Of a stretch of DNA of 64,000 nt, positions 12,301-55,038 are shown piece after piece (position 1 is the first letter of the stretch; each line of letters begins with the position of its first letter). The translations under genes and the position numbers were made by a program. The DNA is from Haliotis asinina (lineage: Eukaryota > Mollusca > Gastropoda > Lepetellida > Haliotidae): assembly GCF_037392515.1 (NCBI RefSeq), contig NC_090292.1, forward strand, positions 44,009,747 to 44,073,746. Direction: 5' to 3'. Under the pieces are notes generated by a model. The model was not told the DNA's origin. It saw only the letters and a program-made list of their open reading frames with translations, and did no database searches.

Positions 12301-12372
12301 GATTAACAGTTGTAAGTCATTAAAATTAGTTCTGAGTCCTCTACAATTCCACTGAATTATAGACGAAGACAT
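9359..12372 (-). pseudogene. LINE copy 2 ORF2 (EN-RT-RNase H), broken
   Basis: The reading starts at ATG 12372, which overlaps the ORF1 stop (TAATG). The first ~70 codons are disturbed; 12163-10190 is open and carries the endonuclease (GDLNGHN, GSDHFPT) and RT (NYRPISLTS, FFDLEKAYDTTW, SSFVDDF). Near 10140 about 0.7 kb between the RT thumb region and RNase H is missing. The frame resumes with WLPCHVGISGN (RNase H) and a C-terminal CCHC (CIPCDERITVKH). No active product is expected. Confidence 0.9.
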
Positions 12373-13697
12373 TATTTCTTCCGAGGAGGATGTACAGGAG
12401 ATCTACCCCGCGCCTTCCTTGACGGTGACAAGCTATGTGTCCCACCACCATTGCCATGGTCGGACACATCCATGTCCTCAAGGGATCCAAACTTATTATA
12501 AAGCTGAATCTCATCTGTTGAACCTTTAGCCAGCCTTTCACTTTGATTGATTCTGTTTAACTTTTGATTTCCTTTGACAGTTTGTTTAGCCAGAGCTTCG
12601 TTTATTTTTTTGGACGAACCCGAGCCTGTTTTGTGTTTCAAAGAAGCATTTTCACTGTTAGTGTTTGTTTTATCCGATTGAGTCATAGGGCATGTAGAAC
12701 CGTTTGGTAAAGAAGACACAGACCGAGATTGAGATGCAATCAATGTAACTGGTAGCGAGTCAGTCTGTGTAGCTAATTCTCCTCGTTGTACAAGGTCTTC
12801 ATTTGGAACCAGTTCAGGTGAGGCTGATTTTGTTCATGTCATTTCTGTCTGACATTCAACAGAGGCTGTAGTAGGAGTTGGTCGTTTGGTAACTGAAGCA
12901 TAAGAAGCACTTTGATCAAAGGATGGGACGAGTTTCTTCGCTTCAGCATAGCTAATGTTTTGAGTGTGCCTTAATTTATTCACCTCCATTTCCCTCTTCC
13001 ACACTGGGCACTCTTTTGATGATGACGAATGTTTCCCAAAACAGTTGACGCATTTTTTATAGTTGCTTTCACAATCTTCTGTCACGTGGGATTGCCCTCC
13101 GCGGTTTGGGATGTACTGTTCTACTTGCAGATTACAATACCCTGCTTTGATAGATTTTGGTGCAGTTGGAGATACAAATGAGAACAGGTACGTATGCGTT
13201 GGAATTACTGTTGAGTTCTGACGTCGAGTGAATCGTTTAACGGACGTGACACCTTGATCTTTAAGTTCGCACATGATGTCAAGGTCTGTCATGTCCTCCA
13301 AAAGATGATCCCTATCCCTAACAATACCTTTACTTGAATTGAGGGTCCGGTGGATAGACACTTTAACAGGAGATCCAGCTAAACTATCTGTTGAAAGCAG
13401 GTTGTTTGCTTGTTGTCGTTTGCTGCACTCTATGAGCAACGATCCAGATCTCAGTCTTTTGATGTTTTTGACATCACCAGCTATACCATAAACTGCTTTA
13501 GAAACAATAAACGGGTTCAATTTGATTGGTTGTTTGTCTGGAGATTCAATAACCAGACATCGTGGCCGGTAGTCTGTTTCTTTGGATGTCCTGCAACTTT
13601 CAGTTGTACTTTGATCAGTATCGAGTTGACGTTTCTTTTTTAAAGGGGTTTCAAGGTCCATGTTGTAGTGTATAGTTTCATCATCTGAGCTCCCCAC
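12372..13697 (-). pseudogene. LINE copy 2 ORF1 (nucleic-acid chaperone), broken
   Basis: Two open pieces (13697-12834 and 12743-12372) are separated by a frameshift. ORF1 proteins of I-like LINEs bind the element RNA. An in-frame deletion has removed the first CCHC zinc knuckle and part of the second: the text jumps from YIPN to HVTEDC, whereas copy 1 has CFRCQRYGHGVNTC in between. The last knuckle-like motif (CVNCFGKHSSSSKEC) remains. Confidence 0.85.
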
Positions 13698-14558
13698 CCG
13701 CCATGGAGTATCACAAGGACAATGCTAAAGCAAGCGGATCTCCAGCTTGCAGCACCAAGGATACTTGGATGATATACTCAAGTAGAATAATCACAAAGTA
13801 ATTACTCCACCAGATTGGCCCATGAGCCACCGCCTTCTGGACATAAGACTCTAGGCAAATTATAACACAAAATTGAAGTGATTCGTTTGAAATTGAAATA
13901 TATAAAGATTTAGCCAAGACATTTGAGAAACTTTAAAAAGTTTCGGAAATTTATGCATTAGAATATACATACTCAGGGCTTGGCATGACCAGCCGATTGG
14001 TCGAACCGGGCCCATTCGACCACCCGTCTAGGCGAAGTCAGGGCCAAAGTGGTGTATTGAGCAACAGGAGCAGGATTGCAGGTCCCTATTGCCCTCAACC
14101 ATCAGGATCCCCTCCTCCGCCGACACAGGGCCGCAACCCATTTGGTGGACCAAATATCCCCCCGGGTCCACAACGGGGGTGTCGGCGAGCTCTTGGCGTT
14201 ACCCAGCACTCACCACGAGGAGGTGGCTCGCCACGGGTGCCTACACAGTTTATGTAATGTTCCGTACTGTACTCGTTGGGTCATGCGTATATATGTCATT
14301 CTAACACAGAATCATCATCTCATGTTAACGTTCTAAGGTAAATATTGTATGCTATGTGGCTATGACCGCTGTTACCATTTATGAGATTGTCTAAGCCATG
14401 TCATGAGTTATCGCCCCTGCTATTGACAAAGTGAAATCGTTGTTATCACTATGTTTAGGTATTGTTTTAATGCACCCATAATGTGGTGGGCGCTCAGACG
14501 TGTAGGTTGTATCAACATTCATGTAATGTACTGACTATGTATGTGTCCAAGAGCTTGA

Positions 14559-17029: not shown

Positions 17030-18335
17030 ATGGAATACCAAACCCCCCAAAAACGCAATAAACGTCAACTTGACAACGATGATGACGACCAACGACCTTC
17101 CAACTCAATCAACTATTGGCCACGATTTTTAGTTCTAGAAACTGTAGACAAGACGCCAATGAAACTTAACCCTTTCGCCATTTCCAAGGGTATACATGGC
17201 ATTGCAGGTGAGGTTAAAAACGTTAGACAGCTTGCGTTCAGGCTCCCTGCTGGTTGAATGCAACAGAAAACAGCAAGCAAAGAACCTCATGTCAACAGAA
17301 GTATTTGTTGGAATTCCCGTCTCTATCACTGCCCACAGGACTCTGAATACCAGTAAAGGCATAATCAGAGACAGAGATGGATTGTTTGCTGATATGTCAG
17401 AGTTAGATATTGCTTCTGAGATGAAAGATCAGGGAGTGATTTATGTTAAAAGATTCACGATCCGCAGAAACAATGAAACGGTCCAAACAAATACTTATCT
17501 GTTCTCCTTCTCATCGCCAAATCCTCCGAAGTCTGTTAAAGCAGGTTATTGTAGTCTTTCAGTTGACGTGTACATCCCAAATCCTTTGAGATGTTTTAGA
17601 TGTCAAAGGTATGGGCACGGTGTTAACACTTGTACCAAGCCCATTACATGCGCCCACTGTAGTGAGAATACTCATGTCACAGAAGACTGTAACAGTGACC
17701 ATAAAAAGTGTACAAATTGTTCGGGAAATCATTCGTCTTTCGCCAAAGAGTGTCCAGTCTGGAAAAAACAAATGGAGATCAATAAAATTAAATTCACCCA
17801 GAACGTCAGCTTTTCTGACGCAAAGAAACTTGTGGAATCTGCAGCACATACTGAATCATTTGCATCAGTTGTAAGAACTCCTGAATATACCTCAAAAGTA
17901 ACTACCTCGTCGATACATTGCCAGACAGATTTGACGTGGGTTAAAACAAATAATGCTCAGTTCGTTGCACCCGAACAGTCTACTCAAACCTTGACATCTT
18001 CTGTCAACGCTCAGGTGGTATCTAAAGCCGGGTCACAGTCCTGTAGTCAGACTTCATCTGTATCTGGAGAACAATCTTTGTCTCAGCCAACTCACAAATC
18101 ACGATCAAAAACAAGCTCGAAGAATATTGTTCAAAGTAAAACTGACTCAAGAACAGAATCTTCAAAAAAGAGTGGCAGACCCCAGAAGGGTTCAGAAAAT
18201 CCTGTAAAATTATTTAATAAATACGGATCGCTTGAGGCCATGGAAGTGTCAGAAAACTTCCATCCCAGGGCACATAGCCTGTCGCCCTCCAAAAAGGTGC
18301 GGGGTAGATCCCCAATAAATCCCCCCAAAAGATAG
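17030..18335 (+). pseudogene. LINE copy 1 ORF1 (gag-like, three zinc knuckles), one frameshift
   Basis: The likely start is ATG 17030 (MEYQTPQKRNKRQ). A single extra base near 17233, between VRQL and RSGSLLVEC, shifts the frame. After it the protein is open to 18335. Zinc knuckles are CFRCQRYGHGVNTC, CAHCSENTHVTEDC and CTNCSGNHSSFAKEC. A Ser/Thr/Lys-rich C-terminal third follows. The product would coat the LINE RNA and chaperone reverse transcription. Confidence 0.88.
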
Positions 18336-21300
18336 TTTCTTCTTATAACATCATACAGTGGAACTGCAGAGGGCTGAAAAATAATTGCAATGATTTACAG
18401 CTATTGATCCAGGACTTTATTCCATCAGCAGTCTGTCTGCAGGAGACATATTTAAAGCAGACGGATACTTTTGACCTACGCCATTTCAATGCTTACCATT
18501 CTTTTTCACCCCCGGGCGAGAGGGCCACTGGAGGAGCTTCTATCCTTATAAACCAGAATATTATTCAGAGCCCTATTATTCTTAATACTGGTCTCCAAGC
18601 TGTTGCCGTGAGACTTACTTTACACGTTGCACTCACACTATGCTCTTTATATATCTCACCGTCTTCAACACTTCAGAAGACCGAACTTCAAAATTTGTAT
18701 AACCAACTCCCGAAACCCTGTGTTATTATGGGAGACGTAAATGGCCACAACCCACTCTGGGGTGGTACAACTACAAATGCTAAAGGTAAAATACTAGAGG
18801 AGTTCTGTTCCGAAAATGATTTATGTATTTTCAATGATGGGTCGAACACATATCTACATCCTGGCACAGGAACATATTCTGCCCTTGATTTATCAGTTTG
18901 TGATTCAAGCCTTCTAAATGAATTTGAATGGTCAGTTCATGATGACCTCTGTGGGAGTGACCATTTCCCAACATTACTAAAACCTGTGAATCCATCTGAT
19001 GTTCCTCCATCATCAAGATGGAACTTCAAAAAGGCTAACTGGCATTTATATGAAACTCTGTGTGTTGACAGGCTTAAACCTGAACTTTTTGATAATGTTC
19101 CTGATGCTATTCAACATTTTTGTGATGAAATGAATGTTATTGCTCATGAGTGTATACCAAAGTCCTCTGCAGTTCCACATATTCGTAAACCATGGTTCAA
19201 TGATCAATGTAAACAAGCTAGAAAGGAACGGAAAAAGGCAGAACACTATTTCCGTCGACACCCCATGGTGCATAATTTGAATAAATTTAAGATTGTAAAT
19301 GCTAAAGCACGGCGTACTTTTAAACAAAGCAAACGCCAATCTTGGCAACGATATGTATCAAACATTAATTCACGTACACCAATATCTAAAGTCTGGAATA
19401 TGATCCAAAAAATCAAAGGTAAGGGCTCCAAATCTAGTATTCACCACCTTAAAGATGGAAACCAGTTATTAACTAATGAAACCGATATTGCTAATAAACT
19501 TGGTGAAACTTTGGCAAAACATTCTTCCTCGTCAAATTATGAACCTAAGTTCCAAACACATCAAAAACAGCAAGAAAAGAAAACTATTAACTTTAATTCA
19601 GATAATGGGGAAGACTATAATGAAACTTTTTCGTTACATGAGCTTCATACTGCTCTTGATCAGGCTCATGATACTGCTTCAGGAACTGATAACATACATT
19701 ATCAACTCCTGAAGCACTTGCCAGATACATGCTTAGAGACGCTGTTACATATTTTTGATAATATTTGGACATCTGGACAATTTCCTTCGTCATGGCGTGA
19801 TGCTATCGTTGTTCCCCTTCCTAAACCTGGACGTGATCATACGGATCCTTCCAATTATAGGCCAATTTCACTTACTAGCTGTGTTTGCAAGACCATGGAA
19901 CGCATCATAAATAATCGACTTGTTTGGTACTTGGAAACAAATAACCTAATAACAGATATTCAGTGTGGTTTCCGTAAAAACAGAAGTACAGTCGATCACT
20001 TAGTGCGTTTAGAATCTTTTGTTAAGAATGCCATAATTAATAAACAACATGCAGTGTCGATCTTTTTTGATCTAGAAAAAGCATATGACACCACTTGGAA
20101 ACATGGGATTTTAAAAGATTTACATGACTTCGGATTGCGAGGCCGATTGCCTCAATTTATAGCCAACTTTTTAAATGATAGACAATTTCAAGTCCGTGTG
20201 GGTTCTACCCTGTCTGATCATTACAGTCAGGATCAGGGTGTACCACAAGGCAGTATTTTGTCTGTTACACATTTTAGCATCAAGATAAACAGTTTATCAA
20301 AGGTTTTAAACGATTCAATTGATGGATCACTTTTTGTGGATGATTTTAACATTTCATGTCGAGGTAAAAACATGCATACTATTGAACGGCAAATGCAGTT
20401 GTGTCTGAACAAGATAAATAAATGGTGTTTGGAAAACGGCTTTAAATTTTCTAAGTCAAAAACTAACTGTATACATTTCTGCCGTAAATACAAACCACAT
20501 AAGGACCCTGAACTGTATCTAAACGGCACACCTATTAAAGTTGTTAAAGAGGCCAAGTTTCTGGGTCTTATATTTGACTCCCACTTGACGTTCTTGCCAC
20601 ATATTAAATCCCTTAAAGTTAAATGTTTGAAGGCACTCGACTTGTTAAAAGTTGTTTCAAATTCAGAATGGGGAGGCGATCAAACCACCCTACTTCACTT
20701 ATACAGATCGCTCATTCGCTCCAAACTTGACTATGGTTCCATTGTATATGGTGGAGCCTGTAAAAGCAGTCTCAAAATGTTAGATTCTATCCATCATCAA
20801 GGTCTAAGATTATGTCTTGGATCTTTTCGAACTTCTCCCGTTGACAGTCTCTATGTCGAGGCAGATGAGCCATCTCTCACTCAGCGACGTATAAAATTAT
20901 CTTTACAATATGCTACAAAACTATACTCTAACAAATCTAACCCGGCATATAACTGTGTTTTCAATCCTCTCTACGAGGATTTATACAACAAAAAGTGTTC
21001 TCTTGTTCCACCTCTCGGACACAGAATCAAACCCTTTCTTTCTTCGGCCGGCATTGAGCTGGAAAACATAGCTCCTTCCCGTCTTCTTTCTTCTCCTCCT
21101 TGGCAATTGGTTAGGCCACAAGTTGACCTAACATTAAGTACATTTAAAAAATCAGAAACTAATGAACTACAATACAAACAAGAATATAATCAGTTGAAAC
21201 ATAAATATTGCGGTTATAAATCCTTATTTACAGATGGGTCTAAGGGCGGTGGCGCAGTGGCTTGTGCTACTGTCATTGGATCCAGAACAATATCTTCTAG

Positions 21301-22020
21301 ATTACCAGACAATAGTTCTATTTTTACAGCTGAAGCTAACGCCATATTAATGCTCTTAAATACATACAAAGACACCCTAAACATAGACAGTACATAATCT
21401 ATTCAGACTCTCTTTCTTGCCTTCAGGCTATTAAAAACCTAGCATGTAAACATCCACTTTTAATAGAAATTATTGAATTGCATAATGATCTTGCAACTGG
21501 CCAATACGACATCGTCTTCTGTTGGTTACCCAGCCATGTTGGAATCTCTGGTAACACATTGGCTGACCTTGCTGCTAAAGCAGCGCTCAACAAATCTGTA
21601 TCACCACTTCTTATTCCTTACAGTGATTATAAAGCCACCATTAGATCTTACATTCGTGATCTCATACAGAAGAAGTGGGACACCCAAGTAGGTATCAATA
21701 AATTACATGCAATAAAACCATTTGTTGGTTACACCTACTTGGGATGTCGGTCCAGATTTGAAGAGGTCATTATACCACGATGTCGTATTGGCCACACTAG
21801 GTATACCCATGAATATCTATTGAAAGGTGAGGATCCTCCGTTCTGCATCCCTTGTGATGAAATAATCACGGTCAAGCATGTTTTGCTTGACTGTGTTGAA
21901 TATTCCATCACAAGGGACAATTATTTTAAATCAAGAACTATGAAGGACCTTTTTAGTAATGTAAGTTCTCATTTAATTATTGCATTTTTAAAAGAATTGA
22001 ATTTATTGACTGACATGTAA
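18336..22020 (+). pseudogene. LINE copy 1 ORF2 (EN-RT-RNase H), one frameshift
   Basis: The frame begins at the ORF1 stop (reading IIQWNCRGLK), but the ATG used in copies 2 and 3 is changed to ATA here. Endonuclease (LQET, GDVNGHN, GSDHFPT), RT (NYRPISLTS, FFDLEKAYDTTW, LFVDDF) and RNase H (FTDGSKGGG, TAEANAI) are open to about 21350. There one base is missing compared with copy 3. The rest (WLPSHVGISGN and CIPCDEIITVKH) continues in another frame to 22020. Confidence 0.93.
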
Positions 22021-25926: not shown

Positions 25927-28900
25927 CTATTTTTTTTTCTTAGAATGTCCATTAGCCCGTTTGATTTGCTCTAGTTTTTGTTTGATTAGTTTGTTCCCTG
26001 TTTTATAAGCGTGGTGCGACGCGTCGTTCCCTGCTCCGTCGACCATTAACACGTCTGCACCGTTTCTTAGGAGATCTTCAAACACAAACACATTGTCACA
26101 AATAACTGATGTCATGAGAGGTGTCAAACCATCCTTGTCTCTGCTGTTGATATTACTAGAGTTTATAATGTACTTTGTCATATGACGCTGCCCATGTCTG
26201 GTAGCCAGATGTAGAAGAGTCTGCCCATCCTTGTCCATCAGAGTCGGATTGGCTTTATGAGACACCAGGAATTTGTACACTTCAAGGTGACTTCCAGAAA
26301 CTGCCCTCATCAGTGGCGTCTGATTATTTCGGCCTCTAACGTCAATGTCAAAGTCACCACTCACCTCATTTACGATTGTTACAGTACCACCCAGTCTGAG
26401 CGTTTGCTGAACAACAGCCTCTTTCTGACCTTGAACGTACCCTTCAAAGTATGTCACAAGATGTTCTACAATAGCTTTGTTCCCTCCTTCACACGCCAGA
26501 TGTAGGACACTGTCTTTGTGGTCATCAGTCAAAGTGAGGTCAGCGTTCTGACTCACAAGCAAATCGAACACATCTTTCTTTCCAGCCAAAGCTGCAGCCA
26601 TGATTGGTGTCCGACCATGTCTTCCAGATGCATTGACGTCAAATTTCCGTATCAGATAATTCACAATGGAACAGTCACCACCCTCACAAGCAAGGTGTAA
26701 GATAGTGTCTCTGCTGTCATCAACCCGTTCGATATCAGCTTTCCTCGACAACAGTAGTTCAAACAGGTTGGGTCGGGCATGCAATGCTGTGACCATTATT
26801 GCTGTTCTTCCTTTGTTTCCCAGACAGTTGATATCGGTTTTGGCCAACAGAGTGTTCACAATGGATTTATTCCCGCCCACACATGCTAAATGTAACACGG
26901 AATTGTTGGAGTTATCCCGAAGTCGTACGTCGGCCCCCTTTGATACAAGCAGTTCAAACACACTGTGTACACCATTCGCAGCTGCAAACATCACTGGCGT
27001 CCATCCGTTGTTTCCACGGCCGTTGATGTCAAACATCTGCAATAGATGTTTCACAATGGAGACATTTCCTCCATGACATGCAAGATGAAGAAGATTATTT
27101 CCCTTGTCATCCGACTGGCGATTCGCCTTCTGTGGATCCAGGAGGTGTTCAAAGGCTTTCTTATGTCCATTTACAGCTGCCTTCATGGCTGGGCTCCAGC
27201 CGTGTTTTCCCTGAATGTTGACGTCAAGTTTTGTTTTCATATGCACCAACATGGTCACGTCATGAACAGTGCACGCCGCATGAAGGAGACTGTTGTTATC
27301 TTCATCTGTCAGTGTAAGGTCAGCTTTCTTGGACACGAGAATGTCAAACACACCCATTCTCCCAGACAACACAGCACACATTATTGGAGTTTGTCCATTT
27401 TTGCCGCGGTCATTTATATTTACGTCGGGGAGCAGGTTTTCGACAGTGGTCTTACCATCACGCTGACATGCGAGATGGAGCAGGGTATTGTTGTTGCTAT
27501 CCCTTAAACCGAAATCGATTTTCTTGGTTTTTACATTATCACTTTTCTTCTTGGGATGTATAAAACAGTCCGACACACCCTCAAATCCAAATACTACTGC
27601 ACACATCACTGGTGTCAAGCCTGTTCTTGTTTGACTATTAAGAAACTGCTTGGCGTAGGAATCAAGATTACGTCTGACGAAATGTTTTACATGTCTTGCT
27701 GTGGGTGCATGGCCATATAGACACGCCAAATGCAGGATGTTGTAGCCATTGTCATCACACAGCGTGACGTCAGCTTTTTTATCAACGAGAATGTCAAAAT
27801 ATTTCATCTGTTCAAAGACAACTGCATACATTAATGGTGTCCAGCCATTCAAACCACTTCTCTTGATATCACACTGACTTACAAGTTGTTCCAATGCATA
27901 TGTGTTCCCAGTGACAAAAGCGTGACACAGAAGGTGATGCTTGGCATCATCAGACACTTCATCAAGATGTTTGATCATTTGAGAAAATTCGTCGGCTATA
28001 GACGGGTGTTTCCATATGGGATGCCAGATGTATTCAGTTAAAGCACCACTGGTGACAGAAGCAACCATTCTGTCAACAAGTATTCTCCTGTTGTCCTTTG
28101 AGAACGGAATAGAGAGCTTGTGTTTATAAGTAGGGACAGACTCAGGTTGCTGCTCCTGGATGTGGTCAAGGAGAAATGTAATACTGAAGTGTTCGAGAGT
28201 AAACTTTGGTTCAATATTAAATAAAACAGAAACACACACATCATAAATCAAAGAATGAGAAAATGTTGCCATTTCGCCGTCTGTCAGAAATGTACCATAG
28301 AAGCTCCGGACAGCCTTAGCGACACCTTGTCTGGTGAATGTCCTCACAAGAGCTGTGACTGCTTGAAGGTGAGCTTCCAGGTCTGATTTATCTCTATCAG
28401 TCTGAAGGTGACTATCTGGACTGACACCTACAAACTTCAGCGGACTGCCAGGCCTGACAGTTTCAGGATTCGGTTGACTGGCGGGACTGAGAGTTTCAGG
28501 TTTGACCTGATGGTCTGATCTGACACCTTCAGACGCTAGCATAGTGTCTGCACTCACAGCGTCTGGTTTCACTTGGCTGTCTGACCAGGCCACTTCCACT
28601 GGCTCTACCTGACTGTCTGGCATTGCAGTTTCAGACTTCAGTCGGGTGCCTGGGCTAACACCTTCAGGCTCCACTTCACTGTGAGGACTGGTAGTTTCAG
28701 ACGTCAGTTGACCGCCTGGTCTGACACCTTCAGACTTTTTTAGCTCGTCTGGACTGACACCTGTAGACTCTAGTATGGTGTCTGTACTGACACCTTCAGT
28801 CTTCGGTTCACTATTTGACCTGTCCCCTTCAGGCTTCATTTGACTGTTTGAAGTGGCACATTCATACTTCACTTTGCTATCTGGAAAGACACTTCCAAGC

Positions 28901-30430
28901 ATCTCTTGAGTGTCGGGACTAGCAACTTCGGATTTAATTTGACTGCTTGGAGTTAGACCTTCAGACTTATGTTGGTTGTCTGTTTTTTCATCTTTAGGCG
29001 TCATTTGACTGCCTTGAATGACTCCTTCAGTCTCCAGTTGACTAATACTTAGCTGACCTTCACATAACGTCATCAATGCGAGAGCAGCTGATTTATGATC
29101 CAGTGAACTAATAATCGTACGAAGCTGGTTTGTTATGTAGAACAAAGGTTTTTCGAAAAAATGTTCTCGATACACTTGAAAGTCCGCACAACACGAAAAC
29201 AGTTTACATGCCAGGGGAAACCCTACAATTGTGTTTTCATGGGCAGTAATTTTGTTCTCATCTAAACTCGTATGGGGACTTTTGTATTTCTGCCGCAATT
29301 CTTTCTTCTCCTCCTGTGTGTAATGTATTTGGACACTCGATGATTCACTGAAAATACTTTGCCGTCCTAGCTTCGACAATGCATACTCAAGGTTATTGCT
29401 TTCTGCAGTGAATATAACACAGACGTGAGGCTGAGCGAGCTCTCTCGTATCTTCTCTTGGTTCTTGCTGCAGACACTGGTACCGTCTTTCAGACCTGGAC
29501 TCTGACTGTCCTAGGTACACATGCAGGTCGTACAAGAAATGTTTAATTCCGTACAGATCCTTATGTGATCTGATTGTCTTAAATATGTCATCAAATATGA
29601 CACAGACGTCTTTGCCGGTATGGAGATAATCAGTCAAACGTACTTTATTGTGATCCTCAGTCAGTACCAGCTCATACCCCTGCTTCCTGTATTCAGCTCC
29701 CAGCATCAGGGCCATGGATGTTTTACCCTCTCCCGGACCACCAGTTATTGTCACGTGACCAAACATGTCTAGCTTTTCTTGCGCCTTCTTGAAGCTCTCA
29801 CTTTCAACAAACACTTTTTCGCTATCCTTTATCTTCTGGCCCAGGGTACCTGTTAAATCAGATAAGCATATTAAACCACTGAAACCCCCGCTTGATATAT
29901 TTCAACTTACCACATCAACTCATTTGTTGATCACATCCGAGTCACTCATGAACGAATACTGAGTGAGAACGCCATGAATACCACGTACTGAACAGCAAAC
30001 GAAACGCAAGTTTCGAACAAATGGAAGCTGATGAAAACGTTCGTGTTTATGTTTTCTATTTTACTGTCCTTTTTCTGTCACGTATGTTCTCGTCACGATA
30101 TGGCTGCAATCTTGCCGATGTGACGTTAAGTATTGACTCACTCACTCATTATGTTTTCTATTTAAACACTTGACTTAAACAGAATTGCAATTTGTTCTTC
30201 AGTACATTTACATCTGTTTGAAAATCACTCACGAACTAAATATAATTTATTCACTGTGTCACTGACTGCACAGAGATCACTTGAATTTGAATACAATAAG
30301 GTAATATCAAAACAAGGCTTTCCCTGAAGAAAACAGGTTTCGATAAAGATCCTTCTTTACTTACCAGGCGGCAGATTGCTCTCGTCCAGGAGCTCAAAAC
30401 TGCAAGATGAATCGTCATCTTTCCCTGATG
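25927..30430 (-). CDS. nSTAND3-like NTPase with ~18 ankyrin repeats (3' exons)
   Basis: Exon 30430-30365 (66 bp, phase 1-1, acidic: GKDDDSSCSFELLDE) joins the giant exon 29849-25927. The giant exon opens after the acceptor TCTGATTTAACAG and runs to TAA. Counting from the codon at 29814: Walker A GGPGEGKTS (25-33), Walker B VCVIFDDIF (70-78), a sensor-like VCVIFTAES, and GFPLACKLF in the winged-helix position. Then come a Ser/Pro/Glu-rich 15-residue repeat linker, a helical part with FSHSLIYDVCVSVL, and about 18 ankyrin repeats in alternating G-x-TPLMxA and LLHLAC types. The tail is lysine-rich. STAND NTPases are signal switches that oligomerise on ATP binding. No ATG lies at the exon start, so upstream exons are required: either receptor B (phase matches) or a small ATG exon at 30749-30737. 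The NTPase-ankyrin call is firm; the 5' structure is not. Confidence 0.9.
28385..29045 (-). repeat. Coding minisatellite: ~15-residue repeats in STAND linker
   Basis: About 15 imperfect copies of a ~45-bp unit encode text such as SEGVSPDSQVKPE. Units keep E-G/T-V, S-x-D/S and K-S/P-E positions while drifting elsewhere. The tract stays in frame throughout and links the NTPase/winged-helix part to the helical region before the ankyrin repeats. It is likely a flexible, length-variable spacer. Confidence 0.85.
30055..30150 (+). mobile_element. Solo LINE 3' tail
   Basis: It has TTTTACTGTCC, TCTCGTCACGATATGGCTGC and GATGTGACGTTAAG, ending in (ACTC)n. It lies in the intron between the 66-bp exon and the giant STAND exon, antisense to the gene. 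Confidence 0.8.
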
Positions 30431-30736
30431 CTGGTCAGAAAATAATATGAATGGATTACATGTTTGTTTGTGCCAAACAATCAGTCTGTGTACTTTTCGT
30501 AACGCATTGCAAAGGTGTAGGAACATTTGTTATGGTGCACTATATATGTATATCATATGGAATGACCTCACCTTCCCTTAAGATTTCGTTTCACAACATA
30601 CAATCATCCTGTACCATATAACATGGCAGTTTCATCCTGCTCTTCATGAGGTCCCAACACATGGCATTATGTTAAAGGTCACATGCAACGTAAAATACAA
30701 GTTTGCAGATTCTGGTACATTGAGGTATGCACTTAC

Positions 30737-30905
30737 CGAAACAAATCATACAAAATGCCAATTCAACCTATAAAGTTGAAAAAAACGCGATGAAAAAAAG
30801 CCACCGAAATCGGAGTTCAAACGTTTCACTAAATTCCCCCCAGCGCTGGGGAGAAAACTGGTTTCAACAGCTGTGCTGCGCTGCGTCCACAACGCATGCG
30901 CAGTG
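30737..30905 (-). promoter_or_regulatory. Possible alternative first exon and promoter of the STAND gene
   Basis: On the minus strand ATG 30749 (Met-Ile-Cys-Phe, then one base) ends at the donor GGTAAGT (30737/30736). Its phase 1 end fits the 66-bp exon at 30430. An in-frame TAG lies shortly upstream of the ATG. About 150 bp further upstream is CGCATGCGCAG, close to the NRF-1 consensus. This would give a soluble STAND protein without the receptor part. The surrounding sequence may belong to a dispersed repeat, so the match could be chance. Confidence 0.35.
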
Positions 30906-31689
30906 AATAGCTTCTCGGAGCTTGAAACAGTATGCATGCCCAGCGTCTGAGGTCGTGAGCAGTAGTCGAACCTTTTTTGTGTACACAAACAAGTAAATAA
31001 TCTACTCGTTACGTAAAAGAACTTGTTGATTGTAGTAAGCAGTTTCTGTCACAGAGAAAGCTTAGTGTCTGGTTTATTCACACCTATATGTCTGTCTGCC
31101 TGTCTGCTAAAGACAACATGCAATACACAGTTTCAATCACTGACCACGTGCAATTTGAACTTAACACCTATCAGACTATACGACGTAAAGAAAATAAGTT
31201 GATTTATGACCCGTGCACCCGAGTCCCGTGTCTGCCACATTATGTAATTAGACACGTGTGATACACACGACATGTTTTTATGTCTGTGGGTTGCAAACAA
31301 ACTACATTCATTTTTTTCGGATGAGTGGATCTGACGGAAACTGGTGCAAACATTGTCACTTTCAAGTCCTGCTTTGTACTTGGACGGATGACAGATTCCA
31401 GTCACGCAATAGTTTACTGTCTCTACTGACATGATTTTTTATTGGATCGAGCGCAAATTCAGAGAACATGTATTTTCCAAACCCAGCATCTCTATATACA
31501 TTCTTCATGGATAACGACTTCTTTTAGTGTATATGATTTTGTTTGACAACAGTATATGAATCCATACTGAAACGACGAATCAAGTACACAAAAAGAAGTT
31601 GTTATCCATAAAGAATGTTATTTTCTTGTGACTGGCTATATTTCTAAAATGTCCATCAAACAGATTATCTTTCTGTACACACAATGAGC

Positions 31690-32160
31690 ACTACAAAAAT
31701 GACTTGGTTTCCAGAAACCTGGAAACCATCCGTAATGTGGGTAATTGCGGAATCCAGTTGGTTTCCATTCCCTGAAACTCACTAACTGAGTTTCCAACTA
31801 GATTCCATTTTGGAAATGTGATTTTGGTATTTCTGTAAATGGAAACCAAACTGAAACTAAGTTCGGGGGTTTCTTGTTGGTTTCCATACCTGGAATTTGC
31901 AACTCTCAGATCTCACTAAATGGAAACCAACATAAAAGTAGAAAATGTAGTTTCATGTTGGTTTCCATTGCGCTGTTTTGAACTAAGTAACATAAATTGT
32001 TTACCATCCTGACATCCAGTTGGTATCCATTCAGTAAAACTGGGTGACCTAGTTTCCAAATAGAATCCATAATGGATACTCTAAGCTCCGGTGATGGAAA
32101 CTGACACGAAGCTATGGTCATGTGTTGGTTTCCATTCCTGACTGAAACTTAGCTTTGACG
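31690..32160. repeat. GTTTCCAT/GGAAACC-rich degenerate repeat
   Basis: Dozens of short GGTTTCCAT and GGAAACCAAC words occur in both orientations without strict period. The same vocabulary returns at 37290-37830, where part of it forms a regular 36-bp array. No coding role is supported. Confidence 0.7.
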
Positions 32161-32256
32161 AGGTGTTATAATTCAATGTGAATGTGCCTGGGGAAGGAAT
32201 AGTAGATAAGAATGAAGATTTTTATGGATATCAACTTCTTTATGAGAGAACACAAC

Positions 32257-32287
32257 GTTTCGGAGTTAATGCTTACTCCTTCATCAG
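32257..32287 (-). ncRNA. Hammerhead ribozyme core motif (inverted arm)
   Basis: Read on the minus strand: CTGATGA, a stem-loop with GGAGT pairing with ACTCC, then GAAAC. This is the conserved hammerhead core found in the terminal repeats of Penelope-like elements. The outer stems needed for cleavage were not modelled. Confidence 0.7.
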
Positions 32288-32733
32288 GTGATTGAGAAAG
32301 GGATACAGAGATGTATTTATATGTACAGGTAAAACAATAACAAAGTAACAAGTGGAATGAGTTAACGAAAGCTAGTATAAACAAGCACTGATAGGAAGCC
32401 GATAGTTAAGATAACAATGATGGAAGCCAATGGTAATGCATTACAATGGTGATACATTACGCATGATAGGATGATGTACATAACACACGATAGGGGGTGA
32501 GCATGTTTACATGAGGGTTGGTGATGTACAAACACAAGTATGTACTCGGGTAGATAGGCTATACATGAATTACATAGATAGAATGTACACAGGTAGATGA
32601 GATTAATTTATCAATAAGTCCCAGGCACTTGGTAGGTACACTCCTTGGTCGCGGTTGATGGCTGGTTTCTGTCTCCGGATCTCGATGGCCTCTTGCAGTT
32701 TCCTTTGGCGCCAGTTGTTGTTGTTGGTAGATG

Positions 32734-33230
32734 AGAAACCTTCTCCATCACCCATCAGAGTAACCATACCCTACCTTGGCCCCATCAGTCATCAAATATC
32801 ACGCCTCATCAAGACCAAAGCCAGCATCGATGTCACCTTCTCCAGTGGCAAGACCATCAAGACCTACCTAAAAGCCAACGGTAAAGGACCCAGCTGTGAA
32901 CACCCTAACCCGAGAGGATGCATCTACCAGATCCCTTGCAACTGTGGCGACCTATACATTGGAGAAACGCTGAGACCAATCAACACCAGAATGAAGGAAC
33001 ATCAGACCTCAGTCAGGAAACTCGACCAGAAATCGGCCATCTCTGAACACATACTCAAGAACCCTGAACACTCAATTCGATGGGAGGACACTAGGATACT
33101 ATCTACCAACAACAACAACTGGCGCCAAAGGAAACTGCAAGAGGCCATCGAGATCCGGAGACAGAAACCAGCCATCAACCGCGACCAAGGAGTGTACCTA
33201 CCAAGTGCCTGGGACTTATTGATAAATTAA
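32734..33230 (+). pseudogene. Penelope-like element C-terminal GIY-YIG endonuclease fragment
   Basis: The open frame contains the GIY-YIG core as CIYQIPC...DLYIGETLRP, then TRMKEHQ, SAISEHI and a final SAWDLLIN before the stop. This is the EN domain following RT in Penelope-like ORFs, which nicks the target DNA. Everything N-terminal is lost. The apparent 5' extension of the frame back to 32655 comes from the inverted arm and is not protein of the element. Confidence 0.88.
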
Positions 33231-33595
33231 TCTCATCTACCTGTGTACATTCTATCTATGTAATTCATGTATAGCCTATCTACCCGAGTACATACTTATG
33301 TTTGTACATCACCAATCCTCATGTAAACATGCTCACCCCCTATCGTGTGTTATGTACATCATCCTATCATGCGTAATGTATCACCATTGGCTTCCACCCT
33401 TATCCCCAATCATGTTATGTAAACATATCCAATCAACTGTAATGCATTACCATTGGCTTCCATCATTGTTATCTTAACTATCGGCTTCCTATCAGTGCTT
33501 GTTTATACTAGCTTTCGTTAACTCATTCCACTTGTTACTTTGTTATTGTTTTACCTGTACATATAAATACACCTCTGTATCCCTTTCTCAATCAC

Positions 33596-33626
33596 CTGAT
33601 GAAGGAGTAAGCATTAACTCCGAAAC
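33596..33626 (+). ncRNA. Hammerhead ribozyme core motif (direct arm)
   Basis: CTGATGA (33596-33602), a helix II hairpin (GGAGT / ACTCC), then GAAAC (33622-33626). It is identical to the inverted copy at 32257-32287. Confidence 0.72.
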
Positions 33627-33860
33627 GTTGTGTTCTCTCATAAAGAAGTTGATATCCATAAAAATCTTCATTCTTATGTATTTTCACTTCTAAATGACAT
33701 TCAAAGACTTGAAGGAATAGTAGATTCGTATCATTGCTTAGATGACAAGACAACAAAAGTAAATTGTTGACGCATCATTCTGTGGATATCACAATAATAA
33801 ATGTGGCTTCAAACTGATGATACAAGAACAAACTATACACTTTTTACCTTCACATTCTTG

Positions 33861-33866
33861 TTTATT
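33861..33866 (-). terminator. Poly(A) signal AATAAA after receptor B short terminal exon
   Basis: AATAAA on the minus strand lies about 61 bp beyond the stop at 33927-33929. Its place supports 34084-33927 as a true 3' terminal exon. Confidence 0.6.
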
Positions 33867-33926
33867 CGTAATGTAATGAAGCATCATATTCCAACTACCA
33901 TGCACACAAACTTCACAATAACCGTA

Positions 33927-44528
<10,602 letters not shown>

Positions 44529-49474: not shown

Positions 49475-52400
49475 TTACAATTCTGATAACAAATCTAATT
49501 CTTTTAAGAAGGCAATAATTAAATGAGAGCTGGTATGAGTAAAAAGATCAATCATAGTTCGTGAATTAAAATACTGATCCCTTGTGATGGAATACTCTAC
49601 ACAGTCAAGCAGGATATGCTTGACTGTGATTCTTTCATCACAAGGGATGCAGAACGGAGGATCCTCACCTTTCAAAAGGTATTCATGAGTATATCGTGTA
49701 TGGCCAATACGACACCGCCGCAAAATGACCTCTTCAAATCTGGACTGACAACCCAAGTGGGTATACCCAATATATGGTTTAATTCCATGTAATTTATTTA
49801 CACCCACTTGGGTGTCCCACTTCTTCTGCATCAGATCACGGCTATAAGATCTAATGGTAGCTTTGTAATCAGTGTAGGGAATAAGAAGTGGTGTCACAGA
49901 TTTGTTGAGTGCTGCCTTAGCAGCAAGATCGGCCATTGCGTTACCAGAAATGCCTACGTGACTGGGTAACCAACAAAAGACGATGTCGCATTGGCCAGTA
50001 GCAAGATTATTATACAATTCAATAATATCAATTAAAAGTGGATGTTTACAAGATAGGTTTTTAATAGCCTGAAGGCAAGAAAGAGAATCTGAATAAATTA
50101 TATATTGTTTATGTTTAGTGTGTCTTTGAATATATTTGAGAGCCGATAATATGGCGTTTGCTTCTGCTGTAAAAATAGAACTATTATCTGGTAATCTAGA
50201 AGATATTGTTCTGGATCCAATGACAGTGGCACAAGCCACTGCGCCACCATCCTTGGACCCATCTGTAAATAAGGATTTATAATTGCTATATCTATGCTTC
50301 AATTGATTAAATTCTTGTTTATATTGTAATTCATTAGTTTCTGATTTTTTAAATGTGGCTAGTGTTAGGTCGACTTGTGGCCTAACTAACTGCCAAGGAG
50401 GAGAAGAAAGAAGACGGGAAGGTGCTATATTGTCCAGCTCAATGCCGGCAGCAGAAATAAACGATTTAATTCTGTGGCCTAAAGGCGGAACAAGAGAAGT
50501 TTTTCTGTTGTACCGTTCCTCAAAAAGGGGATTAAAGATGCAGTTATAGGCAGGGTTTGACTGATTGGAATGTAGTTTTGTCACGTACTGTAAGGCTAAT
50601 TTTATACGGCGTTGGTCAAGGGATGGCTCATCAGCCTCGACGAAGAGGCTCTCAATGGGTGACGTTCGAAAGGAGCCAAGACAAAGTCTTAGACCTTGAT
50701 GATGCACTGAATCTAAAAGTTTAAGGTTACTTTTGCAGGCTCCACCATATACAATTGAGCCATAGTCAAGTTTAGAGCGGACAAGTGATCTATATAAGTG
50801 AAGGAGAGTAGTCTGATCCCCTCCCCACTTTGAATTGGATACAACTTTTAACAAATCGAGCGCCTTGAGGCATTTAGCTTTAAGAGATTTAATATGTGGC
50901 AGAAATGTTAAATGGGAATCAAAAATTAAGCCCAAGAACTTGGCCTCCTTTACCACCTTGATGGGAGAGCCATTTAAGGTTAGCTCTGGGTCCTTATGAG
51001 GTTTATATTTTCTACAGAAGTGTATACAATTAGTTTTGGATTTAGAAAATTTAAATCCGTTTTCAAGACACCAGTTATTTATTTTATTTAAACACAACTG
51101 TAATTGCCGTTCAATGGTGCGCATATTTTTACCACGACAAGAGATATTAAAATCATCCACGAATAATGATCCATCAATTGAATCATTTAAAACCTTTGAT
51201 AGACTGTTGATCTTAATAATAAATAATGTGACAGACAAAATAGTGCCTTGAGGGACACCCTGATCCTGATTGTAATGATCAGACAGGGTAGAACCCACTC
51301 GGACTTGAAATTGCCTGTCTTGTAAAAACTGTGATATAAAAAGAGGTAAACGACCTCTCAAACCAAAATCATGTAAATCCTTTAAAATGCCATGCTTCCA
51401 CGTGGTATCATAAGCTTTCTCGAGATCAAAGAAAATTGATACAGCATGTTGTTTATTTACTATAGCATTTTTCACAAAGGATTCTAAACGTACCAAATGA
51501 TCAATGGTACTGCGATTTTTCCTGAAACCACATTGAATATTTGTAATCAGGTTGTTGGTTTCAAGATACCATGTATTATTTCATACCAATCTATTATTTA
51601 CCATTCGCTCCATGGTTTTACATACACAACTCGTTAAGGAGATTGGTCTATAATTAGATGGATCAGTATGATCTCGACCAGGCTTTGGTATTGGGACTAC
51701 AATGGCATTACGCCAGGAATTTGGAAAATTGCCTGTAGTCCAGATATTATCAAATATATTAAGCAGCGTTTCCAAACATGTTTTGGGCAAATGCTTCAGG
51801 AGCTGATAATGGATACCATCAGCCCCTGTAGCTGTATCATGAGCCTGTTCAAGGGCGGTATAGAGCTCATGCAGTGAAAATAATTCATTATAATCTTCAC
51901 CATTGTCCGAGTTAAAATTGATTGTTTTCTTCTCCTGTTGTTTCTGGTGCTTTTGAAATTCAGGGACATAATTGGATGAAGATGAGTGCCTGGCGAGAGT
52001 TTCACCAAGCTTATTGGCAATGTCAGCCTTATCCGTTAATAAATTATCACCATCCTTTAAATGTTGAACGGTAGATTTGGAACCTTTGCCCTTTATTCTT
52101 TGTATCATATTCCACACCTTTGAAATAGGTGTGCGTGAATTGATCTTGGAAACATATTTTCTCCAAGACTGACGTTTATTCTGCTTAAACGTGCGTCGAG
52201 CCTTGGCATTTAAAATTTTAACTTTATCTAAATTGTGAACAGTAGGGTGTCGGCGAAAATAGTCTTCTGCTTTCTTCCTACTTTTCCTGGCCTGTTTACA
52301 TTCGTTATCAAACCATGGCTTACGAATGTGTGGATTTACAGAGGACTTAGGAATAGTATCATCAGCAATTTGTTTCAGTGTCTCCGAAAATGACTGGATT

Positions 52401-53176
52401 GCATCATGAGCGTCCATGAAAAATTCTGGTTTTACGTTTTTAGTACAACTAGTCTGAAATAAAGGCCAATTAGCTTTAGAAAAATTCCATCTTGACGTCG
52501 ACAGATCATCAGTTGGATTTATAGCAGTGATTACTGTCGGAAAATGGTCACTACCACACAGGTCACCGTGGACTGACCATGAAAATTCATTAAGTATGGT
52601 TGGATCTGTGATTGACAAATCTAGTACTGAATATGTACCCGTTGCTGGATGTAGATATGTGTTCGAACCGTCGTTAAATATGCACAAGTCATTATTAGAA
52701 ACAAAATCTTCAAGAATTTTACCTTTATTGTTCGTATCGTTGCTTCCCCACAGAGGATTATGACCGTTGAGATCTCCCGTTATAACACAGGGTCCAGGCA
52801 ATTGGGAATATAAATCCTGAAGTTCTGATAGCTGAAGAGTCGAGGATGGTGGTATGTACAACGAACAGAGTGTGATCGTGACGTGTAAGGTTAGTCGGAC
52901 AGCAACAGCCTGAAGTTTAGTTGTAAGAGGAACAGGGCTGTGAATGATACCCTGTCTCACCAAGATGGAAGCACCCCCGGTTGCTTTATCCCCCGGAGGT
53001 GAAAAACAGTGATGCGAGTTGTACTGACGCATTTCAAACTTATCATCACGTTTCAGAAATGTTTCCTGTAGACTAAATGCTGATGGGTTTAAATCTTGAG
53101 CTAATAATTGGACTTCGTGAAAATTATTCCTAAGCCCTCTGCAATTCCACTGTACTACATTTGTAGCGTTACTCAT
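49475..53176 (-). pseudogene. LINE copy 3 ORF2 (EN-RT-RNase H), single in-frame stop
   Basis: ORF2 makes the endonuclease/reverse transcriptase that nicks the target and copies the RNA. Domains by codon: APE-type endonuclease (E38 in LQET, GDLNGHN 134-140, SDH 209-211); RT (NYRPISL 508-514, D584 in FFDLEKAYD, FVDD 672-675); RNase H with D972, E1005, D1030 and D1083 (HVGISGN just before); and a C-terminal CCHC (C1176, C1179, H1187, C1192). The only break is TGA at codon 532 (51583-51581), the first codon of a 12-bp in-frame insertion (TGAAATAATACA) absent from copies 1 and 2. The start ATG overlaps the ORF1 stop as ATGA. Confidence 0.94.
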
Positions 53177-54516
53177 GGCGGTTCTATTGGAGACCTCTCA
53201 CGTGTACGAGAGGAGGGTGTACCGTTATTTCGGTTTTGTGAAGATGGCCTATCATCCATCTCCAAAGGCTCAAACAAATTGTGAACCTCTACAGGAGTAT
53301 CAGCAGGAGATTTCTTTGATCTACGATTTAGACGCTTTCTTTGCGATTTTGACATTTCACCTTTTGACGTTTCAACATCTATAGCTGTTTGAACAATTTC
53401 ACCTGATACATGACTAATAGTCTGAGAGGCAGACGTTGTAAAAAAGCCCTGACTGCCAGAAGTACTATTCACATGAACAGGTTTCTCAGAAGCCATCCAG
53501 GTCAAATCCGTTTGACACGAAGTAGAGATTGTTTCTGGTCGTCGTGAGACTGCAGCAGAGTATGTCACAGTGGGAGAGGGATTATGTTGATTCTGGCTAA
53601 GGACTTTGTTTTTAGCCTCCATGAAGGAAATATTTGTTTCATACTTTAATTTAAGTATCTTAGATTGCATTTGCCATTCAGGACAACATTTAGAAGAGGA
53701 AAGATGACTGCTTCCACAATTGGCACATTTAATATCATTGCTGCAGTCAGAGTCCTGATGATGTTCACTACAACGATGACAACGAGGAGTGTTTCGACAG
53801 GACTTAGACCCGTGTCCAAACTTCTGACAGGAATAGCAGCGGAGTGGAGTGGGGATATACACCTCCACTCCGATATTGAAATAGCCGGCTTTGATTGACT
53901 TTGGCAGAGTGCACGATGAAAAGGTAAACATGTAAGTGTGGCCAGGTACAATGCTACCATCCTGCTTCTTAACAGGAAAGCGTTTGACGGAAGTTACATT
54001 CTGATCCTTAAGTTCAGCCACTATTTCATCCTCGGACATGTCCGCCAGACAATGGGCTCTATCCCTAACAATGCCTCTACTTGAGTTCAGAGTTCTATGA
54101 GCTGAGACAGCAACATTGACGTTGGCAAATTGATGTTGTTGCAATAAATTTATGGATTGCTGTCGTCGCGCACACTCAACAAAAAGTGTACCTCCTCTGA
54201 GACGTGAAACGTTCTTAACCTCTCCACAAATAGATTGTATTGTCTTTGATACTAGAAATGGATTGATCTTGAGTGGTTCACCATTGGTAGATTCAATAAC
54301 TATGAATCTTGGCCAAGGTTCTTGGTGTGTTGGACCTGAAACATCTTCATTACAAGAAAGATGATCAGCCTCTAAACGTCTTTTTTTGTCGTTTCTCGTG
54401 GAACCAGAAAGGGTGATTGACATGGTGATGATAATAGATTCAGCACTCCCGCTCCCCACCCGCCACCGAGTGTCAACGAGGACAGTGTTGTACTGCAGTG
54501 GAACTCCAGCCTGCAA
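53173..54516 (-). CDS. LINE copy 3 ORF1 (gag-like RNA-binding protein), intact
   Basis: The frame of 447 codons starts at ATG 54516; a later ATG (MSITLSGSTRNDKKRR) corresponds better to the starts of the other copies. The middle has a conserved block (LRGGTLFVECARRQQ, TLNSSRGIVRDRAH). Then come three zinc knuckles: CYSCQKFGHGSKSC, CHRCSEHHQDSDC and CANCGSSHLSSSKC. The C-terminus is rich in Ser, Lys and Arg. It should bind the element RNA. The TGA stop overlaps the ORF2 ATG by 4 nt, which suggests coupled reinitiation. Confidence 0.9.
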   Translation of the reverse strand: MQAGVPLQYNTVLVDTRWRVGSGSAESIIITMSITLSGSTRNDKKRRLEADHLSCNEDVSGPTHQEPWPRFIVIESTNGEPLKINPFLVSKTIQSICGEVKNVSRLRGGTLFVECARRQQSINLLQQHQFANVNVAVSAHRTLNSSRGIVRDRAHCLADMSEDEIVAELKDQNVTSVKRFPVKKQDGSIVPGHTYMFTFSSCTLPKSIKAGYFNIGVEVYIPTPLRCYSCQKFGHGSKSCRNTPRCHRCSEHHQDSDCSNDIKCANCGSSHLSSSKCCPEWQMQSKILKLKYETNISFMEAKNKVLSQNQHNPSPTVTYSAAVSRRPETISTSCQTDLTWMASEKPVHVNSTSGSQGFFTTSASQTISHVSGEIVQTAIDVETSKGEMSKSQRKRLNRRSKKSPADTPVEVHNLFEPLEMDDRPSSQNRNNGTPSSRTRERSPIEPP

Positions 54517-55038
54517 ACACTAAGGATACAGGAGTGGTATACTCCAGTAAATACGACATGAGTAGCTACATTTGTCTACCAATTCAAATGCTAGGCTGGT
54601 TCGGCTATTAGCAAGAAATTGGAGACATATAGAACACAGAGGTCGACATCACCAGATTGGCCCATGAGCCACCGCCTTCTGGCATAGGACTCTAGGCAAG
54701 TAGATATAGCAAAAAGGTATTACACACTAGACGTCAAAAAGACCAATGCCCAATAAATCAAATGTGCGAAAATACTTTCTATGCACAGGGCATGGCGTGA
54801 CCAGCCGATTGATAGAATCGGGCCGATTCTACCACCCGTCTAGGTGAAGTAAGGGCCGAAGTGGTGTGTTGAGCAATAGGAGCAAATTGGTTCAGTCCCC
54901 TACTGCCCTCAACCACCAGGATCCCGTCCTCCACCGACACGGGACGCAACCCACGGCAAACAGGTTGCCCAATTTAGTCGCCTCTTACGACAAGCAATGG
55001 GGTGCTGTGGACACATTCTGTCCCGGGTCCACACGGGA

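Follow-up and report, generated by a model that had tools for sequence, protein, structure and literature searches.

STAND nucleotide switches are familiar mainly as sensors that act in the cytosol. In the parts of the published accounts used here, AjNLRC4 of the sea cucumber Apostichopus japonicus is described as acting in phagocytosis as a pattern-recognition receptor located in the membrane (PMC8699970), and a second sea-cucumber receptor as having the reversed topology (PMC13133943). In the oyster Crassostrea virginica about 50 expanded proteins combine a Cys-rich ectodomain, a transmembrane helix, DED, TRADD-N and a variable C-terminus that may include STAND or ankyrin modules (PMC8195603), and sea-anemone NLRs carry 3–5 N-terminal transmembrane helices (PMC5094078); the portion of a ctenophore NACHT survey drawn on here notes no EGF-NACHT protein (PMC11797021). 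Here we analyze a minus-strand gene within a 64,000-nucleotide stretch of the abalone Haliotis asinina (assembly GCF_037392515.1, contig NC_090292.1, positions 44,009,747 to 44,073,746), the window to which all coordinates below refer. The gene probably encodes a type I single-pass surface receptor with an nSTAND3 switch and ankyrin repeats, belonging to a family that appears to exchange its ectodomain exons, and it may serve in immunity or self-recognition. The initial annotation had called this architecture unusual, which holds, but the general idea of a membrane-anchored STAND protein was already known, since the sea-cucumber, oyster and sea-anemone examples had been published.

The window letters were read by script on the minus strand, and all ten coding exons claimed initially were reproduced. 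Exon 1 (44495..44528) starts the signal peptide, with the same N-terminus as the public H. asinina protein P0001, and exon 2 (42258..42548, phase 1-1) encodes the Cys-rich EGF-like ectodomain with its 14 Cys, the part apparently swapped among relatives. Exon 3 (40575..40607) encodes stalk residues that are absent from the shorter stalk of the paralogue P0002, exon 4 (40177..40294) the rest of the stalk and the transmembrane helix (mean hydropathy 3.36 at residues 140-158 of P0001), and exon 5 (39802..39891) a juxtamembrane part with the basic run RRRKR. Then come the mini-exons 6 (39592..39605), 7 (39087..39119) and 8 (38717..38755), the 66-nt juxta-STAND exon 9 (30365..30430) and the giant exon 10 (25927..29849), which holds the nSTAND3 NTPase, a disordered linker, a second folded region, the ankyrin repeats and the stop. 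The three mini-exons had been described as acidic; they are all present, with lengths that we correct to 14, 33 and 39 nt. Exons 7 and 8, similar to each other in sequence, are acidic. AG stands before all nine downstream exons, and GT behind all exons except exon 10. Joined, the exons make 4641 nt, i.e., 1546 residues plus a stop, which are the 1547 uninterrupted codons of the initial annotation, and both the 66-nt exon and the giant exon join in phase 1 as it had proposed. The dependence of the STAND exon on upstream exons was likewise borne out. In-frame stops lie 18 codons upstream of the giant exon (29904) and 2 codons upstream of the 66-nt exon (30437), and the first Met of the STAND exon lies eight residues ahead of the first Walker A Gly, i.e., within the domain, so that neither exon can start a protein alone.

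By script comparison P0001 (1541 residues, labelled “isoform X2” by one source) equals the joined window protein from end to end minus RRRKR, and it contains the mini-exons that link the transmembrane helix to the STAND part. The EGF-transmembrane and STAND-ankyrin parts are therefore annotated as one gene, in agreement with the single protein claimed initially. The five-residue difference is explained by a possible second acceptor, read from the sequence, 15 nt inside exon 5 (39891-39877), the use of which would remove RRRKR directly after the transmembrane helix. Its removal might change membrane topology or stability, and the window version with RRRKR is presumably another isoform.

Related proteins were collected by a query made of joined-protein residues 215-540, an alignment search and a short-receptor search, and the set is numbered up to P0085. 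The first query returned 48 proteins, all from Haliotis or with names starting with “Hal”, and four Haliotis species have predicted proteins of the fused form. A Cys-rich ectodomain and one transmembrane helix accompany the STAND body in 45 of the 56 clusters (P0001-P0056), a count in which P0008 and P0038, on both of which the P-loop pattern of our script failed, are included by their listed transmembrane helix. P0054, P0055 and P0056 have the ectodomain, the transmembrane helix and two P-loop STAND regions with no ankyrins listed, and Pfam finds two nSTAND3 stretches in P0054 and P0055. The search for EGF-transmembrane-STAND-ankyrin relatives suggested in the initial annotation thus found the family in Haliotis, and elsewhere matches to the EGF or ankyrin part only. 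No match outside Haliotis listed nSTAND3 in the precomputed Pfam lists, although these searches, being word-based, could overlook remote relatives or vetigastropods that are not annotated. The EGF-part matches were two bivalve proteins, a scallop MEGF6/PTP receptor (P0057) and a Solemya protein (P0058), and the ankyrin matches included the fungal P0060 and P0074, which list NACHT or NPHP3_N domains. Current annotation obscures many family members by labels like “serine/threonine-protein phosphatase 6 regulatory ankyrin repeat subunit B-like”. All seven H. asinina-named clusters and P0031 list the same largest contig (55,744,664), as do 21 of the 22 H. cracherodii-named clusters (40,864,218), which suggests that the family is mostly on one chromosome in each of these species.

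Evidence that the outer and inner parts of these proteins have been combined in different ways comes from comparing them over the 44 rows that have both regions (946 pairs). Ectodomain and STAND distances agree overall (Mantel r 0.61, reached in 0 of 2000 permutations). However, among the 31 pairs with STAND regions at least 85% identical, ten have ectodomains at most 70% identical (52–69%), and in the reverse direction STAND identity is no higher than 70% in 22 of the 50 pairs whose ectodomains are at least 85% identical. The ten discordant pairs amount to some three cases: P0031 against P0034, which we both take to be from H. asinina (STAND 242/255, ectodomain 44/84); P0029 and P0033 against P0025, P0030 and P0035; and P0008 against P0004, P0006 and P0007. 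Sliding along the P0031/P0034 alignment, identity is 40–63% per 30-residue window over the first 120 residues and 70–100% over the rest. For P0029/P0030 it is 37–67% over the first 90 residues and 60–100% in later windows, except for one at 47%, while the P0004/P0008 break is less sharp. The clearest breaks fall close to where the EGF region ends, a point that corresponds in the window gene to the phase-1 end of exon 2. We also considered a hypervariable ectodomain and discarded it, because on average the ectodomain is more conserved than the STAND region (mean distance 0.37 vs. 0.49).

On the ectodomain tree (84 columns; 44 of 45 rows, P0024 being without a STAND group), in which 13 of the 40 inner branches are well supported, nine changes of STAND group are needed, against a minimum of six and a mean of 25.1 after shuffling. 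The approximately unbiased (AU) test rejects a single ectodomain clade for P0031 and P0034, which are also a clade in the STAND tree (p 8.5e-5, for a pair chosen after seeing the identities), and it rejects single ectodomain clades for C2a (9.3e-8), for C1b (1.2e-5) and, weakly, for C1a (0.02). The window gene itself differs from its paralogue P0002 at one of 84 ectodomain residues (83/84 identical) and is identical at 231/255 in the STAND region (p 0.008 by Fisher's test, 18 such tests having been made). Against P0003 of H. rubra the two parts are equally diverged (64/84 and 191/255), so that slower evolution of the ectodomain does not suffice as an explanation. P0029 and P0033 have identical ectodomains (84/84) with STAND regions at 245/255, which might mean that they share one exon pair or that conversion took place recently. 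Ectodomains and STAND bodies appear to have partly separate histories, which is new here, and the swaps seem best explained if exons 1 and 2 have undergone recombination or conversion. That tandemly arranged STAND-ankyrin or STAND-STAND bodies acquire interchangeable signal-peptide-plus-EGF cassettes by recombination in phase-1 introns, coupling new outside specificities to the same ATP switch with no death-fold adaptor, is a proposal to which we give an even chance.

With respect to the inner part, Pfam assigns the giant exon to nSTAND3 (PF20720; E 2.8e-14, 53.5 bits against a cut-off of 27.2) and to ankyrins (E 2.2e-119) and gives no NACHT, NB-ARC or LRR match at E up to 1, so that the protein is not an NLR in the strict sense. 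The nSTAND3 match of P0054 reaches 98.0 bits, and P0055 has an NB-ARC match below the cut-off (0.0067). We aligned the STAND region of the window gene with those of 54 of the 56 clusters (P0046 and P0049 were left out). The columns that we take to be Walker A have Lys and Thr in 54 of the 55 rows (the other row is a gap), the presumed Walker B Asp is present in 55/55 and the presumed GxP Pro in 54/55. The nucleotide-binding motifs of nSTAND3 are intact. The structure predicted between the start of the STAND exon and the ankyrins consists of an NTPase core, a linker of low confidence and then a second folded region. The first ten Foldseek matches include EfAvs5 (SIR2-STAND) and SAMD9, and in a second fold comparison the longest alignments among the 50 matches shown were to three STAND chains, 8bob_C (presumably MalT, 319 residues), NLRC4 (308) and NRC1 (266). 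A sequence search of the PDB gave weak ATPase matches only. The linker (28390..29022), a low-confidence part of exon 10 that spans residues 276-486 in the modelled fragment, carries repeat-like SDSQVKPEA units, and the corresponding DNA repeat is weak (33 bp × 2.7). Measured between markers, it spans 20–229 residues in 12 clusters (P0001-P0009, P0011, P0012 and P0014) and 0–9 in the other 42. The STAND tree was built with 54 of the 56 clusters, P0014 and P0024 having no match to the start pattern, and in it the long-linker clusters except P0014 form one branch of 11 rows, the clade of the window gene. Matches to NCBIfam models of Dot/Icm ankyrin effectors were far below the cut-offs, and the ankyrin repeats alone account for them.

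The outer part had been named an EGF ectodomain. Pfam calls no EGF domain in this open reading frame (ORF), nor in the relatives given a Pfam search; the name is retained as MEGF-type EGF-like because the region aligns with the EGF repeats of the scallop receptor P0057 (34/82 identical, 41%, 1e-15). Weaker matches to several further P0057 repeats align it repeat after repeat. We read it as a putative two-repeat MEGF-type Cys-rich module, and 14 Cys are found in 39 of the 43 family members measured. A PDB sequence search with the ectodomain gave no match. Engulfment receptors of the MEGF/Draper type carry cytoplasmic ITAM or NPxY Tyr motifs. The joined protein has no Tyr between the transmembrane helix and the STAND domain, so its juxtamembrane part does not resemble the tail of those receptors. 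Two more EGF-like exons, alike each other, flank the gene on the minus strand (63639-62977 and 3118-2621) and match family proteins at 24–44% identity by tblastn with the 48 family proteins; no intracellular part was found for either of them. Outside the gene, the matches of this search in the window were limited to these loci near 3 kb and 63 kb; between 30.5 and 44.6 kb it gave known exon areas only, and no alternative EGF exons were seen beside exon 2.

These features would fit a receptor in which the ectodomain binds, or is clustered by, a ligand, so that STAND domains meet at the membrane and nucleotide exchange locks them into an oligomer. The ankyrin array could be a platform recruiting cytoskeletal or signalling partners, a role proposed because no death, TIR, protease or nuclease domain is among those listed by Pfam. 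Judging from the relatives, the family would diversify by exchanging signal-peptide-plus-EGF exons between STAND bodies, probably through recombination in phase-1 introns.

Several observations count against this interpretation. The public fused proteins are predicted gene models, and wrong gene joining in tandem arrays could also yield swaps and is the main rival to recombination; the overall distance correlation, in turn, would be the same for conserved neighboring genes. Eleven of the 56 clusters have no ectodomain. Among these P0043, P0044 and P0048 differ in their N-terminus, which has no transmembrane helix, and stand apart in the STAND tree (branch support only 80/61), P0012 and P0023 keep the helix, and the remaining ones look truncated or begin inside it. 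Arg, which we presume should follow the IFTT-like strand as sensor 1, occupies the sensor-1-like position (column 149, assigned by eye) in only one of the 55 rows. The structural models are limited: the STAND model is only fair (mean predicted local distance difference test, pLDDT, 66.8) and the ectodomain fold is poor (pLDDT 56.7). Foldseek gave no match to the STAND model at E ≤0.001, with DnaA and ORC as the best ones, and in the second comparison AAA+ proteins tie in Z with the STAND chains.

Among the other explanations, the one that survives best is that one gene gives several products, a full membrane receptor, a short decoy stopping at 33927 and a cytosolic STAND-ankyrin form starting at 30749, which we hold to be possible at somewhat less than even chances. 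There is a possible alternative terminal exon on the minus strand (33927..34084, with AATAAA at 33866) that would end a short receptor of 269 residues without STAND, and a possible alternative first exon (30737..30749, minus strand; ATG at 30749, 13 coding nt, donor from 30736, phase 1), the only candidate with a GT[A/G]AGT donor that our script found in 30440-33900, from which a cytosolic STAND-ankyrin form could possibly arise. Both exons have usable splice sites. Other Haliotis species have receptor-only models (P0083 and P0084, the latter a named short isoform) and ectodomain-less ones (such as P0026, P0037, P0040 and P0041, the last three with isoform names), and in P0026 of H. rufescens a four-residue leader, MFAC, is joined straight to the STAND exon. 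Given such models and the alternative start and terminal exons of the window, other isoforms are possible. On the other hand, truncated models are a common annotation fault, and none of these forms was found for H. asinina in the searches made. The short-form query of the protein database returned four matches, all from other Haliotis, so that a receptor always ending at 33927, the outcome that the initial annotation had named as contradicting a joined protein, does not appear there.

We regard it as unlikely, though less easily set aside than what follows, that the apparent swaps are annotation errors, or first exons shared by splicing to several bodies of a tandem array. The identical ectodomains of P0029 and P0033 fit one shared exon pair, and most members seem to share a single contig within each of H. 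asinina and H. cracherodii. However, the models of both P0031 and P0034 are complete and their signal peptides differ, each of the two ectodomain types is also present in other species, and the ectodomains of P0001 and P0002 cannot be one exon because one residue differs.

The polarity of the receptor could also be the opposite, with the ankyrins sensing an intracellular signal and the transmembrane-ectodomain part acting as an effector or anchor clustered by the STAND oligomer. Classical NLRs have the order effector-STAND-repeats, which favors this inside-out arrangement, as does the greater average likeness of ectodomains than of STAND regions, which is not what a fast-evolving sensor would give. 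We nonetheless consider it rather improbable. P0054-P0056 keep the ectodomain, the helix and two STAND regions with no ankyrins listed, and different ectodomains on nearly identical bodies suggest that specificity lies outside; the absence of listed ankyrins in the double-STAND members and the exchange of ectodomains lead us to suggest the outside part as the sensor. Finally, two adjacent genes, an EGF-transmembrane one ending at 33927 and a cytosolic STAND-ankyrin one from near 30749, joined by gene prediction, would accord with the usable terminal exon and its AATAAA, the phase-1 ATG exon, the 8286-nt intron between the halves (exon 8 to the 66-nt exon), the ectodomain-less or receptor-only models of other Haliotis and the distance correlation that conserved neighbors would also give, but are very unlikely in view of the fused form in four species, the ectodomain and helix in most clusters, the mini-exons included in P0001 and the lack of a short H. 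asinina form in the short-form search.

Within the 8286-nt intron there is an ORF (32607-33230, plus strand), with an inverted partial copy nearby, that by eye we take to resemble the GIY-YIG part of Penelope-like elements. The introns also contain a 36-bp minisatellite of 8.6 copies and a long AT microsatellite (37348-37655 and 41511-41783), and motifs related to GGTTTCCA were seen by eye near 31.7-32.1 kb as well. Elsewhere in the window, three ORF stretches (10190-13724, minus; 17163-22020, plus; 49475-54519, minus) look like retrotransposons without long terminal repeats (non-LTR), their translations being, as we judge by eye, a zinc-knuckle ORF1 and a reverse-transcriptase ORF2.

We did not recognize this architecture in Haliotis in the open-licence literature of PubMed Central, judged mostly by title and the start of the abstract, nor did we recognize there this order of domains, an nSTAND3 type, an expansion in abalone or ectodomains that are swapped. 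If our preferred reading of a surface receptor with exchanged ectodomains is true, the family would show innate receptors diversifying without somatic recombination. A large animal family with STAND directly behind a single-pass receptor would allow testing whether STAND fires from outside the cell, and the modular ectodomains are an extra feature that deserves follow-up.

STAND proteins have prokaryotic kinship, and the NTPase region matches the bacterial candidate defence protein PDC-S73 (5e-13), as P0054 does DS41_1 (3e-11). The best stretches extend over only some 65 residues, the DS41_1 match scores far under the cut-off, and the EGF-transmembrane part lies outside these matches. Among animal systems, AjNLRC4 shares with the abalone protein an extracellular domain, a transmembrane segment and an intracellular STAND-class NTPase in one protein, but its ectodomain is Ig, it has two transmembrane segments and a NACHT domain, and the part of the report used here notes no ankyrins (PMC8699970); no Ig or NACHT was found in the Pfam results for the window gene or P0001. 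Sea-anemone NLRs are also predicted membrane-anchored STAND proteins, but with several transmembrane helices, NACHT and LRRs, and with no EGF-like ectodomain noted in the portion consulted (PMC5094078). The C. virginica family, as described in the part of its report used here, is similar in belonging to a mollusc, in its Cys-rich ectodomain and transmembrane helix, in its inner STAND and ankyrin modules and in its lineage-specific expansion, but it is defined by DED and TRADD-N, whereas in abalone the STAND domain directly follows the juxtamembrane part (PMC8195603). DED and TRADD-N are absent from the precomputed Pfam list of P0001, no more sensitive search having been made. MEGF/Draper and the bivalve EGF-PTP receptors (P0057 and P0058) have similar repeats, as in the 41% over 82 residues to P0057, but P0057 and P0058 carry many more of them and an inner phosphatase domain, where the abalone proteins have one two-repeat module and STAND.
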